Shown here in pieces: positions 50,399 through 56,687 of a DNA stretch of 64,000 nt; position 1 is the first letter of the stretch, and each line of letters starts with the position of its first letter. Source of the DNA: an uncultured Caulobacterales bacterium. Lineage in GTDB: Bacteria > Pseudomonadota > Alphaproteobacteria > Caulobacterales > Caulobacteraceae. Position numbers and translations under genes: made by a program. The DNA lies in contig CAIOYC010000030.1 in NCBI GenBank assembly GCA_903862425.1, positions 62,001-126,000 of the forward strand, given 5' to 3'. A model generated the notes under the pieces. That model saw only the letters and a program-made list of their open reading frames with translations. It had not been told where the DNA came from and searched no databases.

Positions 50399-52570
50399 TT
50401 GAGCGTTCTGATCAATGGATTGCGAGCCTGGGCCCGGGCGGAAGCTGGTGCGCAGGTTGACCGCTGGCCCCTATGGGCTCCGGTCGCCTTCGGCATTGGC
50501 GCCGCGAGCTATTTCGGACTGATGACTGAGCCAATCTGGTGGCTGGGCGTTGGCATGCTGACGGCGACCGTGCTGCTATTGATCGGCGCGCATCACTGGG
50601 GCCGTAGCCGCGCCCTGATCGCCGCATCTACCCTGCTCGCCTTCGGCGCTGCGGGCTTCTCCAATGGTGGGCTGGCCACGCATCTGGCAGACGCGCCACG
50701 CATTCCTGATAGCTACGGTGTAGGCAGCATCGAGGGGTGGGTAGTGGACGTCTCCAGCCCCTCAACTGATCGGGGGCGGATGCTGATCGCGCCGGTGCGT
50801 ATTTCCCATCTGCGTACGGAAGAATTGCCCCTGCGCGTTCGCGTGGTGGTCAAACCGGCGGATCTCGTCGGGCCAGGGGAGGCCGTGCGGCTGACCGCTC
50901 TGCTCAATCCACCGCCGCGCCCTGCGGCACCTGGCGCCTTCGACTTCGCCCGGGATGCCTACTTCGAGCGGATTGGTGGAGTCGGGCTGGCGCTGAAGCC
51001 GCCCATGGTGATCGACCTGCCCGAGCCCGCCAGCCTGCGCCTGCGCACTGAGTTTTCGCTCAACCGTCTGCGCTGGCGGGTGGCGCGCAACCTGGCCGAC
51101 GATATCGCCCGTTTCGTCCCTTCCGCCGGGCAGGGCGCACAGGGTCTGGCGGCGGCGGTGACCACCAGCCACGAGGCCTGGCTGCCGGCTGAGGATGCAG
51201 ACGGCCTGCGCGGCTCAGGCCTCGCCCACATGTTGGCCATTGCGGGGCTTCACACGGCGGCGGTGTGCGGTTTCGTTTTCGCCGCCTTGCGGTTGGCCAT
51301 CGCCGCGTGGCCGTGGCTGGCGCTTCGGGTCAGTGGCAAGAAGGTCGCGGCCGCCGGGGCGCTGATCGCGGTGCTCTGTTATCTGGCGCTCAGCGGCGCT
51401 CACCCACCGGCCAAGCGTGCGGCGATCACGGCGGGTGTGGCTTTTGTGGCCATGCTCCTCGACCGGCGCGCCATCAGCCTGCGCTCTTTGGCCATCGCCG
51501 CCCTGTTGGTGCTGTTGATCCAGCCAGAGGCCGTGGTGCAGCCCGGATTCCAGATGAGTTTTTCCGCGACCGGCGCCCTTGTAGCCCTGGCCGAGATCTG
51601 GCCGCACCGTTCGCGTCCCATCAACGCACCTTGGCCGATCCTGATGCTCCAGAGGGCCAAGGACTGGGCGTTGGCGCTGTTCATGGTCAGCTTTGTAGCA
51701 GGGGCGGCGACAGGGCCGTTTGCCTTGCAGCACTTCAACCGTATGGCCAATTACGGCGTGCCCGCCAACCTCACCGCGGATTTTGTCGCCTCGACGATCA
51801 TGATGCCATCCTTGGCGGTGTCATTGCCGTTCGAGGCGCTAGATTTAGGGCGCGACTGGCTCGTGGCTCCGCTCACCGTCGCCGGCTGGGCCGCGCGGGC
51901 GATCCTTGAGATCGGCCGCATCTGTTCCACCGCACCGGGCGCCAATGTTACATGGTCGAGCGCACCGCCCATCGCCATGCTGGTCGCGTTTCTTGGCATC
52001 GTGTTCGGCATACTGTGGAAGGGGCGCCTGCGCTGGATCGGCGCGCCGCTGGCCTTCGCCGTCATGCTATGGCCGCGCCCGCCCGCCCCGGTTGGGTGGA
52101 TCGCCAACGATGGCAACGGCGCCGCCATCGTCCAGAATGGGGTGATGATCGCGCTGAAGCCCACCCACACCGCCTATGCCACTGACCTATGGGCTGCCCG
52201 GCGGGGGCTCAAACATGCCGCCGATGACGAAGCCCAGCGCAACGCCCTGTTCGAATGCGACCTGAAGGGCTGCACGCCGCTTCCAGACACCCATCCAGCG
52301 ATCGGAACCTGGTGGAGCACACGCCCGCCGAACTTCGACCGGGCGGCTGACCTATGCGCACGGAGCGAGGTCGTGTTGTTCCGCGCCTTGGTCGATCCGC
52401 CTCCGGCGTGCGCGGGCAAGACCTTCATCGGAACAAATGAACTCAGGGACGGCGGCGCAGCGGAAATATATGCCGACCACGGCAAGCTAAGGCTGGTCTG
52501 GTCTGAGCCTATACGCGGCAATCGCCCCTGGACCGGCGCGAGCGACGAGATCAGTGATAGCGACGAATGA
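50399..52570 (+). CDS. comEC: ComEC/Rec2-family DNA uptake channel
   Basis: About 723 aa polytopic membrane protein. N-terminal DUF4131 region with two helices and an OB-like part ([19 protein letters not shown]), the Competence core ([50 protein letters not shown]) and a C-terminal part where the metallo-beta-lactamase-like domain is degenerate: no HxHxDH is seen. Mediates import of single-stranded DNA across the inner membrane. TTG 50399 is a plausible start; the frame is open from 50273 but that would cover the gltX start. Its 3' end overlaps convergent lexA by 20 bp. Confidence 0.87.
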
Positions 52571-53237
52571 GCCCCACCAACTTGCCCTGTACCTCAACCT
52601 GATCGGGGCCGAACACGCGGGTCTGGTATTTGGGATTGGCGGCTTCGAGAGCGATTGAGCCGGCCTTCTTGCGCAGGCGCTTCAGGGTGGCCTCCTCGCC
52701 CATCACCAGGGCGACGACGATCTCACCGGAGTTGGCGGTGTCGCCCTTCTTGATCACCACGTAGTCGCCGTCGAGAATACCGGCCTCGATCATCGAATCG
52801 CCCTGCACTTCGAGTACATAGTGATCGCCCGAGCCGAGGAGTTCGGCGGGCACCGTGATCCGTTCGCGCTCGTGCTGGATGGCCTCGATCGGCGTGCCGG
52901 CGGCGATGCGGCCAAGCACCGGCAGGGACTGACTGTCATTGGCGGCCACGGGAGGCGGCACGGAAGGGCGCGATCCCTGCACCACCTGCGGCTTGAACGG
53001 CGCACGCATCCTTGCGGCCGCAGTCTCCGGCAGTTTCACCACCTCCAACGCTCGCGCCCGATGGGCCAGGCGGCGCAGGAAGCCGCGCTCTTCCAGCGCC
53101 GTGATCAGGCGGTGGATGCCGGACTTGGACGCAAGGTCGAGCGCATCCTTCATCTCGTCGAACGAGGGCGAGACGCCGGTCTCCTTGATGCGCTCATGGA
53201 TGAACATGAGCAGTTCGTGCTGCTTCTTCGTAAGCAT
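52551..53237 (-). CDS. lexA: LexA repressor
   Basis: 228 aa. N-terminal winged helix ([17 protein letters not shown]...[17 protein letters not shown]), cleavage site AAG within [11 protein letters not shown], catalytic Ser in [11 protein letters not shown] and Lys in [13 protein letters not shown] master repressor. ATG 53237 has GGAG 8 bases upstream (an ATG at 53243 is also in frame). A perfect GTTC-N7-GTTC box lies 46 bp upstream. The transposon sits 76 bp upstream of the start. Confidence 0.98.
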
Positions 53238-53282
53238 CACCATCTCCGAACCGTCGCGGACAAATCGCGAACATGAGCGGAT

Positions 53283-53311
53283 GTTCTGTAAGTGTTCCGG
53301 GTTAATGTCAA
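53283..53311 (-). promoter_or_regulatory. lexA promoter: -35 TTGACA and SOS box
   Basis: SOS box GTTC-TGTAAGT-GTTC at 53283-53297 (plus-strand reading) matches the alphaproteobacterial LexA operator exactly. TTGACA is on the minus strand at 53311-53306, so the box covers the -10 region. A second half-match GTTC-N7-GTCC lies nearer the gene (53272-53258, minus). This implies autorepression. The -35 hexamer is within the transposon's target duplication. Confidence 0.85.
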
Positions 53312-53313
53312 GT
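53305..53313. repeat. Target-site duplication, lexA side
   Basis: ATGTCAAGT, identical to 55885-55893 on the other side of the transposon. IS1595-family elements usually duplicate about 8 bp; here 9 bp match. Confidence 0.9.
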
Positions 53314-53339
53314 GGCGATTATGCACTTGCCATACCAAG
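53314..53339 (+). repeat. Left terminal inverted repeat
   Basis: 26 bp starting GGCGATTATGCACTTGCC, exact reverse complement of 55859-55884. Confidence 0.95.
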
Positions 53340-53430
53340 CGAACGGAAATAAATCCATGACCGACGGGCCGGTATTTTACGAAAAAGTAAGAGAATCAAC
53401 GCGTCCCCGCCGTGGTATGGTGGGGGCGTT

Positions 53431-53628
53431 ATGAGCGCGCCAGATCAAATGGAGATTGAGCCAACACCCGCTATGATCGACGCGGGGGCATCGGCGTTGC
53501 TTTCTAGCTGCTATGCCAACGAATTTCGTCCAACCACGGCGGAGCAAGCCGTGCGGGAGGTCTGGGCGGCAATGGATCAGGCGTCACGCCAAGCTCAACA
53601 AGCAAAAGGCTGTGGGCGACCCAAGTAG
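53431..53628 (+). CDS. Transposon passenger: 65-aa protein
   Basis: Begins MSAPDQMEIEPTPAMIDAG and contains a helical TAEQAVREVWAAMDQA, a pattern seen in small phage and mobile-element proteins. GGTGGGGGCG precedes the ATG. Its 3' half overlaps the convergent HEPN-motif gene by 125 bp, so one of the two ends may be misjudged. No function recognised; a small partner protein for the adjacent gene is conceivable. Confidence 0.5.
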   Translation: MSAPDQMEIEPTPAMIDAGASALLSSCYANEFRPTTAEQAVREVWAAMDQASRQAQQAKGCGRPK

Positions 53629-54040
53629 CGTAGTGGGATTCAGATAGCATCTCGTCCAACTCCCCCAGACTGATAGCTTTAAGCTTCGATTGGGACCACG
53701 CGACAGCCCGATCCGGCGTGGCCGTTATAACGGCATGCGCCAGCATGTTCCGGTCGTTTCGGTAGTTTTCTGCGACATACACAAGCTCGATAACAAGCGT
53801 ATCCATCCCTTGGGGAAGATGCCCCCGCTTACGCCTTGCGTTGAGGAGATCGATTTTTCTCTTGAGGTCGATCACGTGGACCAAATCAGCGCCGTCTCGC
53901 GCGTCACTGATGCCCGATAGGCGCTGGATCAAATGGCCTATCTCATTGTCAATCATCGCCCAGTTAGCGATGATGGTCGCGATTTTTAGTCCCTGCTCAG
54001 GTGTGAGCCCAAATTCCCAGAGCGTCGGTGTAATGACCAC
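53504..54040 (-). CDS. Transposon passenger: helical protein with HEPN-type RNxxxH motif
   Basis: About 178 aa, predominantly helical. Contains YRNDRNMLAHA, in which RNMLAH fits the RNxxxH signature of HEPN RNases, after helices (IANWAMIDNEIGHLIQRL; DLKRKIDLLNARRK). The tail is proline-rich (DPLPPRPPARLAPPW). GTG 54040 has AGGAA about 9 bases upstream; the frame is open to 54175 with an ATG at 54109. Proteins of this shape occur as hypothetical genes on mobile elements. RNase or toxin/defence activity is inference from one motif. Confidence 0.55.
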   Translation of the reverse strand: MVITPTLWEFGLTPEQGLKIATIIANWAMIDNEIGHLIQRLSGISDARDGADLVHVIDLKRKIDLLNARRKRGHLPQGMDTLVIELVYVAENYRNDRNMLAHAVITATPDRAVAWSQSKLKAISLGELDEMLSESHYATWVAHSLLLVELGVTPDPLPPRPPARLAPPWLDEIRWHSS

Positions 54041-54214
54041 GAAGCTTATTCCTAATGATGAATCAGGCGCAGAGGACGCTAGGCGCCGCGACGAGATAAT
54101 CCGCCGCATGATCGCGACCCCTCCGCAACCTAAGCCGAGGGTTACTTGCGAGTCGATTCCCTCCAAGGGTGACAAAGCCGAGAAGTAGGCGCACCATCCG
54201 CGACGCTGCTTCTG

Positions 54215-54371
54215 GGTTTGATCACCCGGTCTCTAGCATTGCGCTGAACGTAGGTCCCCGCTTCGTCGGGCGGCCTGCCAATACAACACCTTCGGGGAAT
54301 ACGCAGGACGCGTCTTCCTACGTTCACGCGTGATCAACCGCCCGGCTTCGGACGGGCCTTGAACGTGGGGG
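54215..54371 (+). ncRNA. Structured RNA / riboswitch-like leader in the transposon
   Basis: Nested pairings: GGTTTGATCAC (54215-54225) with GTGATCAACC (54330-54339); TGAACGTAGG (54245-54254) with CCTACGTTCA (54317-54326); TCCCCG (54255-54260) with CGGGGA (54293-54298); then a GCCCG/CGGGC hairpin (54340-54357). CCTACGTTCA can instead pair with TGAACGTGGG (54360-54369), which overlaps the ribosome-binding site of the 151-aa gene (ATG 54376). Two exclusive folds are thus possible. No known riboswitch class recognised. Confidence 0.55.
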
Positions 54372-54375
54372 CTGT

Positions 54376-54831
54376 ATGCGTCGACTATTTCCTGTGGCGG
54401 GATTTCTGATCCTGTTCGCCATTGCGTGGCATTTGCTAACGCCGTCTCCAGAGACCAAGGCGGCTACAAACCATGCCGATGAGATCGCGCACTCGGTAGC
54501 GGCGTCCCTCCCTCCCGGAGCATCTGGCGCGACAGTGACCGTTGATGACAAAACCATCAGCAACAATACCTATTTCCTCACGATCAATTATCCACAGTCC
54601 TTCGACTGGAATACGGATGTCGTATTCGACAATGGAAAAACCGTGGTGCGGCGAGTGCTGGATAAGCTCATGGCTGACGGGAAACATCCGGCTGAGGATC
54701 GCACCATCATCCGCGCCTATTCCCAACAGGTGGGCGGCCGGGGTGAGGCGACCGGCGCGCCCATGGTGCATGTCTTCGGATACACCGAATATGACGCATC
54801 CTCAGACAGCATTCGCTGGGTGGATGACTAG
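54376..54831 (+). CDS. Transposon passenger: 151-aa secreted or membrane-anchored protein
   Basis: N-terminal hydrophobic segment (LFPVAGFLILFAIAWHLL) acts as a signal anchor or signal peptide, followed by a soluble domain of mixed alpha/beta character with DNGKTVVRRVLDKLMADGK and RTIIRAYSQQVGG. GGGGG is 4 bases before ATG 54376, partly within the alternative RNA pairing. Not recognised. It ends 45 bp before the convergent transposase stop. Confidence 0.65.
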   Translation: MRRLFPVAGFLILFAIAWHLLTPSPETKAATNHADEIAHSVAASLPPGASGATVTVDDKTISNNTYFLTINYPQSFDWNTDVVFDNGKTVVRRVLDKLMADGKHPAEDRTIIRAYSQQVGGRGEATGAPMVHVFGYTEYDASSDSIRWVDD

Positions 54832-54876
54832 CCCTTCGTCTTCCACCTAGATCGGCGTCGTTTGGCCCATGGCGGC

Positions 54877-55821
54877 TTAGGCGGCGGCTTTGAGGCCGTC
54901 AGTCCGCCGATAAGTCAGACGCTTGCCTACGGTGCCCGCAACCGCCGTACGGGCACGCATGGTATCGGTGATGCCCAGCGCAGTGCGGTTCGAGTATCGG
55001 AAGTCGAACTCGCGCATGTAGCGGTGCAGGTGTTGCTCGCCGCAGTGCTGATAGATGCCACGCATCCCGCGTTTGAAGATGGAGAAAAAGCCTTCAATCG
55101 TGTTCGTGTGGATCACGACGGGGGCGTATTTCACGTACTCGTCCTTGCCGTGGTTCACGACGCCGTGGGCTGAGAAGTTCCAGCCAACCGAGGTGTAGCG
55201 CGGAGCCTCATCGGTCATCAGATGGGCCTCCCGGCTCATATTGGCCTCAAGGATCGGCATAATGGTGGACAGCTTCAAATCTTTTACGACGGCAGATCGC
55301 GCACGGCCGGTGTTGCGCTCTACCAAGGTGACGATTTTCATCTTGTGACCAGCGCCGCCCTTCGCCTTGGCGCGTTCGCGCAGATTGCCGATGAAGGTTT
55401 CGTCCACTTCAACCGCGCCGCCATCATCACCCATCGGAGGATTGGCGTCGCCCTGGTTCATCGCCTCGCGGATACGATGCGCCATGAACCAGGCCGTGCG
55501 GTAAGAGCCAAATCCGAGCGAGCGGTAGAGCTGGTGCGCGCTCATGCCCTTCTTTGACGAGCAGAGCAGATGCGTTGCCAGCATCCACTTGTGCAGCGGG
55601 ATGTGCGATTTCTCATAGACGGTGCCCATCACAGCCGTGAAGGGCTTGCGGCAGTCCTTGCACTTGTAGAGGCCAGGACGCGTCGTGCGGCCTTGCATCA
55701 GCGTCGAGTTGCCGACCGTCCCACAGTGCGGGCAAACGCGACCTTCGGGCCAGCGAATCGCCTCGAAGTGAGCGCGGGCCTTTTCCTCGTCGTGGAAGAT
55801 GGGATCGGAAAGGGTCGTCAT
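54877..55821 (-). CDS. IS1595-family (ISXO2-like) transposase
   Basis: 314 aa, full length. N-terminal zinc ribbon (CPHCG...CKDCRKPF), helix-turn-helix region (MSAHQLYRSLGFGSYRTAWFM), and DDE-type catalytic core: VEVDETFIGN, MTDEAPRYT and HTNTIEGFFSIFKRGMRG, the ISXO2-like signature. It starts 38 bp from the right terminal repeat. No frameshift or truncation, so likely active. Confidence 0.95.
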   Translation of the reverse strand: MTTLSDPIFHDEEKARAHFEAIRWPEGRVCPHCGTVGNSTLMQGRTTRPGLYKCKDCRKPFTAVMGTVYEKSHIPLHKWMLATHLLCSSKKGMSAHQLYRSLGFGSYRTAWFMAHRIREAMNQGDANPPMGDDGGAVEVDETFIGNLRERAKAKGGAGHKMKIVTLVERNTGRARSAVVKDLKLSTIMPILEANMSREAHLMTDEAPRYTSVGWNFSAHGVVNHGKDEYVKYAPVVIHTNTIEGFFSIFKRGMRGIYQHCGEQHLHRYMREFDFRYSNRTALGITDTMRARTAVAGTVGKRLTYRRTDGLKAAA

Positions 55822-55858
55822 CGGGTCGTCTCCAGTGAGAAAACCCTACAGAATCAAT

Positions 55859-55884
55859 CTTGGTATGGCAAGTGCATAATCGCC
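55859..55884 (-). repeat. Right terminal inverted repeat
   Basis: 26 bp ending ...GTGCATAATCGCC, exact reverse complement of the left end. Confidence 0.95.
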
Positions 55885-55893
55885 ATGTCAAGT
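55885..55893. repeat. Target-site duplication, trpC side
   Basis: ATGTCAAGT, 8 bp from the trpC stop codon; matches 53305-53313. Confidence 0.9.
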
Positions 55894-55901
55894 GAACGCT
55901 G

Positions 55902-56687
55902 TCAGGCGTCCAGCAGCATCCTTGTGGCGGCCTCGACGTCGGCCTGGCGCATGAGGCTTTCGCCCACCAGCATGCCGGAGCAGCCGGCGGCGCTGATGCG
56001 AGCTGCGTCGGCGCGGGTGAAGATGCCGCTTTCTCCAACCAGGACAGCACCTTGCGGCTTCAGTGGGGCGAGGCGCTCGGTGACTGCTAAATCCACGTGG
56101 AAGGAACGCAGATCGCGGTTGTTGATGCCCACGAGGGTTGCGCCAAGATGACCCGCGCGAGCCATCTCGGCCTCGTCGTGGACCTCCACGAGCGCATCCA
56201 TTCCGAGTCGCGCAGCCTCGGTCATGAGGGCCTCGGCGAGCGAATCGTCGATCATGGCGAGGATGACGAGGATCGCGTCGGCGCCGAGCGCGCGCGATTC
56301 GGCCACCTGCCAGGGATCAACCAGGAAGTCCTTGCGGATGGCGGGGAGGGGGCAGGCGGCGCGGGCAGCGGCCAGATAGGCGTCGTCGCCCTGGAAACTC
56401 GGCCCGTCGGTCAGCACACTGAGGCAGGCCGCACCGGCGGCGGCATAGGCGCGGGCGAGGACGGGCGGATCGAAATCGGCGCGGATCAGGCCTTTGGACG
56501 GACTAGCCTTCTTGATCTCGGCAATGAGGGCCGGACGGCCGGGCGCGGCCTTGGCCTTAAGCGCGGCGGCGAACCCGCGCACCGGCGAGGCGGCCATGGC
56601 TGCAGCCTCGACGTTACGGCCGAGCGCCTTTCGCGCGGCGACTTCTTCCCGCTTGTAGGCGGCGATCCTGGCAAGGATATCGCTCAT
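55902..56687 (-). CDS. trpC: Indole-3-glycerol-phosphate synthase
   Basis: 261 aa TIM barrel, tryptophan synthesis. [20 protein letters not shown] (catalytic Lys/Glu), [31 protein letters not shown] and [10 protein letters not shown]. Free-standing (not fused to TrpF). ATG 56687 overlaps trpD by 4 bp. The transposon is inserted just past its stop, so read-through from trp toward lexA is now interrupted. Confidence 0.98.

Follow-up and report, generated by a model that had tools for sequence, protein, structure and literature searches.

Insertion sequences with targets near host control sites

Site choice by way of a host DNA-binding protein is known for few bacterial insertion sequences. By analogy, the nearest precedent for the elements considered here is provided by the IS1202-type elements found at XerC/dif sites. 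Members of the IS1202 family, including ISAjo2, insert at dif and pdif at a fixed distance of a few bp from the XerC site, and a direct contact between transposase and XerC has been proposed (PMC10132070). A different kind of regularity has been described for TnGBS, ISLre2 and ISKra4, which insert 15-17 bp upstream of the -35 box of sigma-A promoters (PMC3942029). The SOS operator of Caulobacter is given as GTTC-N7-GTTC (PMC9578287, citing da Rocha 2008), which is GAAC-N7-GAAC when read on the other strand. In the openly accessible full text that was searched there was no report of IS1595 or other insertion sequences targeting LexA operators.

An IS1595-family element between trpC and lexA

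The window, by which is meant the whole 64-kb stretch of DNA analysed here, comes from a Caulobacteraceae genome and contains a 2,571-bp IS1595-family element at 53314-55884, between trpC and lexA, which is present as a single copy in its genome. The features of the locus, in window coordinates, are as follows.

52551-53243, minus strand: lexA (PF00717, PF01726, TIGR00498), start probably the ATG at 53237
53283-53297, minus strand: perfect LexA operator GAACACTTACAGAAC (GAAC-N7-GAAC), read from the sequence and kept in relatives
53305-53313, unstranded: target-site duplication on the lexA side (ATGTCAAGT), 7 bp from the operator
53306-53311, minus strand: lexA -35 box TTGACA within the target duplication, read from the sequence and kept in insertion-free relatives
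53314-53339, unstranded: lexA-proximal terminal inverted repeat, distal from the transposase start (repeat comparison)
53431-53628, plus strand: small passenger ORF, no family match (ORF list, profile searches)
53504-54175, minus strand: passenger ORF of 223 aa, no family match, HEPN-like R-x4-H by eye
54376-54831, plus strand: passenger ORF of 151 aa, no family match (ORF list, profile searches)
54877-55821, minus strand: IS1595-family transposase (PF12762, PF12760, NF033547)
55859-55884, unstranded: terminal inverted repeat on the transposase-start side, towards trpC (repeat comparison)
55885-55893, unstranded: target-site duplication on the trpC side, the second ATGTCAAGT copy, with an isolated copy of the -35 box
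55902-56687, minus strand: trpC (IGPS; PF00218), stop codon 8 bp from the trpC-side duplication

The transposase has an ISXO2/IS1595-type DDE domain and an N-terminal zinc ribbon (Pfam PF12762, E=1.6e-32, and PF12760, E=2.7e-13) and matches the NCBIfam model NF033547 with E=5e-58 and 196 bits against a cut-off of 75, and the GG with which its terminal inverted repeats start is common to the element and its relatives. The inverted repeats are perfect, extending over 26 nt within the element (GGCGATTATGCACTTGCCATACCAAG, 26/26 identical) or 27 nt if one base of the duplication is counted. The 9-bp target duplication is found at both ends of the element (53305-53313 and 55885-55893) and occurs exactly twice in the 64-kb window, where 0.18 occurrences would be expected. 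A duplication of 9 bp is shared with the element of genome G062, described below, whereas duplications of 8 bp are the norm in nearly all relatives for which both ends could be set. The passenger ORFs yielded no match in Pfam or PADLOC or, for two of the three, in NCBIfam; the protein encoded at 53504-54175 has a HEPN-like R-x4-H stretch (RNMLAH) that was recognised by eye. No LexA operator lies inside the window element and so there is no sign of an SOS-controlled transposase; internal LexA boxes were also rare and without pattern in other elements, and control of the transposase by this route was rejected.

The lexA promoter at the insertion

The first-pass annotation had proposed that the target duplication contains the lexA -35 box and that the SOS promoter had consequently survived the insertion. 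TTGACA at 53306-53311 does indeed fall inside the duplication, the lexA-side copy of which reads ACTTGACAT toward lexA, on the minus strand. The same annotation placed the operator 8 bp further in, a figure that is correct for the distance from TTGACA to the operator, but the distance from the duplication itself is 7 bp. Its identification of the neighbour on the other side as trpC was borne out by the match of the encoded IGPS to PF00218. The ATG at 53237 is the more likely start of lexA, because the proteins of relatives begin MLT.

Upstream of lexA, Caulobacteraceae that lack the insertion have ACTTGACATTAA followed by GAAC-N7-GAAC. Among the aligned lexA promoters with standard spacing, TTGAC is present in 32/32 and TTGACA in 31/32; two further promoters have TTGAC one base further off, and the arrangement is absent from a few divergent ones. 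A different -35 box in insertion-free relatives would have told against the original proposal; instead, the combination of TTGACA, 8 bp and GAAC-N7-GAAC is conserved across the Caulobacteraceae without the insertion. Because of this conservation the lexA promoter can be taken to have been duplicated intact: the -35 box, spacing and operator beside lexA all match those of the insertion-free relatives, the downstream part of the promoter is intact as well, and the lexA-side promoter is complete and presumably still LexA-controlled. The bases upstream of the duplication site, which are moderately conserved (GTT[C/A]), have been replaced by the element end. A partial, CtrA-like TTAA-N7-TTAA surrounds the lexA -35 box, both in the window (53306-53330) and in the lexA promoters of relatives; its left half has been replaced by the element and the motif is only partly conserved in relatives. 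A consensus scan detected no outward sigma-70-type promoter at the junction of element and flank. Near-normal SOS control of lexA would be the plain expectation.

A second insertion has occurred at this site. In G062, which belongs to a different genus of the same family, another IS1595 element is inserted between trpC and lexA at precisely the same 9 bp. It is about 1.0 kb long and is turned the other way with respect to lexA; a segment of its transposase is 75% identical to that of the window element. In G006, from the same genus as G062, the lexA site is empty with nearly identical flanks. The window genome and G062 were the only two of 390 family genomes with an element at the trpC/lexA junction, and the two insertions are independent events.

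An insertion rule relative to the LexA operator

The insertion sites of related elements were compared using an extended sample of transposase relatives from family genomes, together with 80 named loci and a few viral contigs; the named records among the relatives from the window's own family were from Caulobacter, Brevundimonas, Phenylobacterium and Peiella. Element ends were placed where inverted repeats could be paired and the duplications next to them were identical, giving 106 unique insertions and 195 flanks, with only one element end known in 17 sites. A perfect GAAC-N7-GAAC was found beside the duplication in 31 of the 106 insertions, at an offset of 4 bp in 25 cases, 7 bp in five and 1 bp in one, and there was one additional perfect operator at offset 13. 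In these flanks the motif has a background frequency of 5e-5 per position, against which the binomial probability of the offset 4 class alone is 2.7e-84. Near-match operators were present at offset 7 in a further three (L091, L268 and L269). The polarity of the operator is constant, with the element always on the 5' side of GAAC-N7-GAAC, and the opposite polarity was not encountered within 38 bp of any of the 106 insertions. The orientation of the element is unbiased, 13 versus 14.

The window element conforms to this pattern, with a perfect operator of the fixed polarity at offset 7 from its duplication at lexA, and its position there follows a family-wide rule and is not a chance near miss. 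Survival of the lexA promoter follows from the fact that the lexA operator points toward lexA.

The genes at the targeted operators are lexA (twice), recA, radC (twice), mmcB (twice), yifB (four times), mraZ and prophage terminase (three times), the assignments of two yifB, one mmcB and the G062 lexA having been read from translation. The four insertions at yifB/comM were in Caulobacteraceae, Rhizobiaceae, Rhizobium and Methylovirgula, and the one-mismatch operator of L091 precedes the gene for DNA polymerase III alpha. Where the operator is directed at the gene, as in the cases of lexA, recA and mmcB, the element is found upstream of the promoter. The polarity is reversed at yifB, mraZ, one radC and several genes that start right after the box, and there the element separates the gene from the operator. 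All that stays constant is how far the insertion is from the operator and on which side of it; gene direction and element orientation vary. The association recurs in many lineages.

This variation bears on two other ways of explaining the sites. One is that promoters, or TTGACA as the -35 box, are the true target, in the manner of TnGBS, and that the LexA box is incidental. TTGACA does lie inside the window element's duplication, sister elements are found at TGTCA-N8-TGACA and some offset-4 sites read GTTCTTGACA, but at lexA and recA the insertion precedes the promoter and at other sites it falls between operator and start codon, there is no TTGAC next to the box at L100, L108, L111, L125 and L128, and L091, the nearest relative outside lexA, keeps the operator at offset 7 with TTGAC in another register. 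Since the direction of gene and promoter varies and operator polarity does not, the promoter or -35 box was rejected as the constant reference, and promoter targeting is regarded as very unlikely. The other explanation is that insertion is random and is followed by selection or tolerance, those at SOS operators surviving as intergenic or beneficial. Many of the sites are intergenic, as this would predict, but selection on expression could not yield an offset exact to one base, together with a single polarity, in 25 cases irrespective of gene direction, and the explanation is scarcely credible. Nor is the operator carried by the transposon, since the boxes are found beyond the duplications and insertion-free relatives have the lexA operator too. 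Judged on these sequence comparisons, it is highly probable that a group of IS1595-family elements picks LexA operators as target sites.

Several genomes contain two different elements at two different operators. The targeted boxes also carry an extended motif, with A after the first GAAC in 29/32 of them versus 4/25 background occurrences (p=1e-8) and A after the box likewise enriched (p=5e-5), and because of this motif they look like functional operators. Targeted operators lie beside prophage terminase or portal genes at L098, L099, L120 and L124, which suggests that the elements also ride LexA-controlled prophages. At L100, L108, L125 and L128 a start codon follows right after the LexA box and the ORFs, of 175-251 aa, look alike by eye; those of L100 and L108 had no match to a Pfam family, and the four are possibly an unnamed SOS gene.

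Breadth and limits of the rule

Operator sites account for 26 of the 55 insertions in Caulobacteraceae, compared with five of the 51 elsewhere (p=3e-5). The remaining 29 in Caulobacteraceae and 46 elsewhere are without a perfect operator and the rule is therefore not absolute. The operator-site label is scattered over the transposase tree, with at least 14 changes forced, and this scatter rules out a single special subclade as the source of operator targeting. The element group seems to have several targeting modes, and some subclades seem to use other targets. The insertions L093, L094, L212 and L217 are in roughly palindromic targets, TGTCA-[8 bp]-TGACA, that resemble TTGACAT in the elements' own inverted repeats; L097, L102, L195, L224 and L232 are in T or A runs just after GC-rich, terminator-like hairpins; and L110, L121, L139, L204 and L222 are in CCCTCC/GGAGGG palindromes. 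The closely related elements of L085, L117 and L127 have another common target (ATGATCGATCTCCG... or similar) that appears to lie within a single gene family. Relatives in gamma- and betaproteobacteria were found in 6/369 genomes, and there are few in groups with different SOS boxes.

Does LexA guide the transposase?

The proposed sequence of events would involve a staggered cut on the 5' side of GAAC-N7-GAAC, leaving most commonly 4 bp, sometimes 7 and rarely 1 between operator and duplication, with the element inserting in either orientation. The choice of site would be made at the transposition step, most likely through contact between the transposase and operator-bound LexA, a parallel to the contact proposed for XerC at dif. 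At lexA the operator is directed at the gene, with the -35 box immediately beyond its edge, and such a cut would duplicate the -35 box and leave a complete promoter. Operators would offer a landing site that is conserved, is mostly intergenic and exists on chromosomes as well as on prophages.

That the transposase recognises operator-bound LexA, with insertion being guided by the SOS network, is a proposal held with moderate confidence. The competing possibility, which is tenable if less favoured, is that the transposase itself reads operator DNA, in the form of an extended GAACA-rich direct repeat, without the LexA protein. The targeted boxes have a base-level consensus, GAACAWA...GAACAT, there is a preference for NCAA just outside the box, and the fixed offset and polarity would fit as well. 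However, the same offsets are found with transposases only about 46-57% identical to that of the window and with different inverted repeats, and the targeted boxes resemble functional operators and not the commoner background occurrences, although neither point is decisive. It is because divergent transposases have the same offsets and the boxes look like functional operators that LexA protein is considered slightly more likely to be the guide than DNA reading by the transposase.

Elements at LexA operators have SOS genes as neighbours, among them lexA, recA, radC, mmcB, yifB and prophage operons, and may rewire them, and operator-targeting elements would link DNA-damage control to transposition. 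If guidance by LexA is correct, insertion could become more or less frequent with the cleavage of LexA that follows DNA damage. The insertions could also be used to chart, from natural events, where LexA operators are in the alphaproteobacteria.

Comparison with known systems

The window element resembles the IS1595 family in its transposase domains, GG-starting inverted repeats, short target duplication and passenger genes, and is unlike nearly all of its relatives in having a duplication of 9 bp in place of 8 bp. The operator at the targeted sites is exactly that of the Caulobacter SOS regulon, but the latter has been described as a regulon and not as a set of transposon targets. TnGBS, ISLre2 and ISKra4 share with the present elements insertion at a fixed distance near gene control regions, but their reference point is the promoter and here it is the LexA operator. 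The window insertion, moreover, duplicates the -35 box itself, which is not the TnGBS-type spacing, and its transposase matches the IS1595 model and no Mutator-type model. IS1202 and ISAjo2 have in common with the present elements a fixed distance of a few bp from the site of a host DNA-binding protein. They differ in belonging to another family, with another target, a 5-bp duplication and a single orientation, whereas the present elements are found in both orientations and the window element combines a 9-bp duplication and a LexA operator with an IS1595 transposase.
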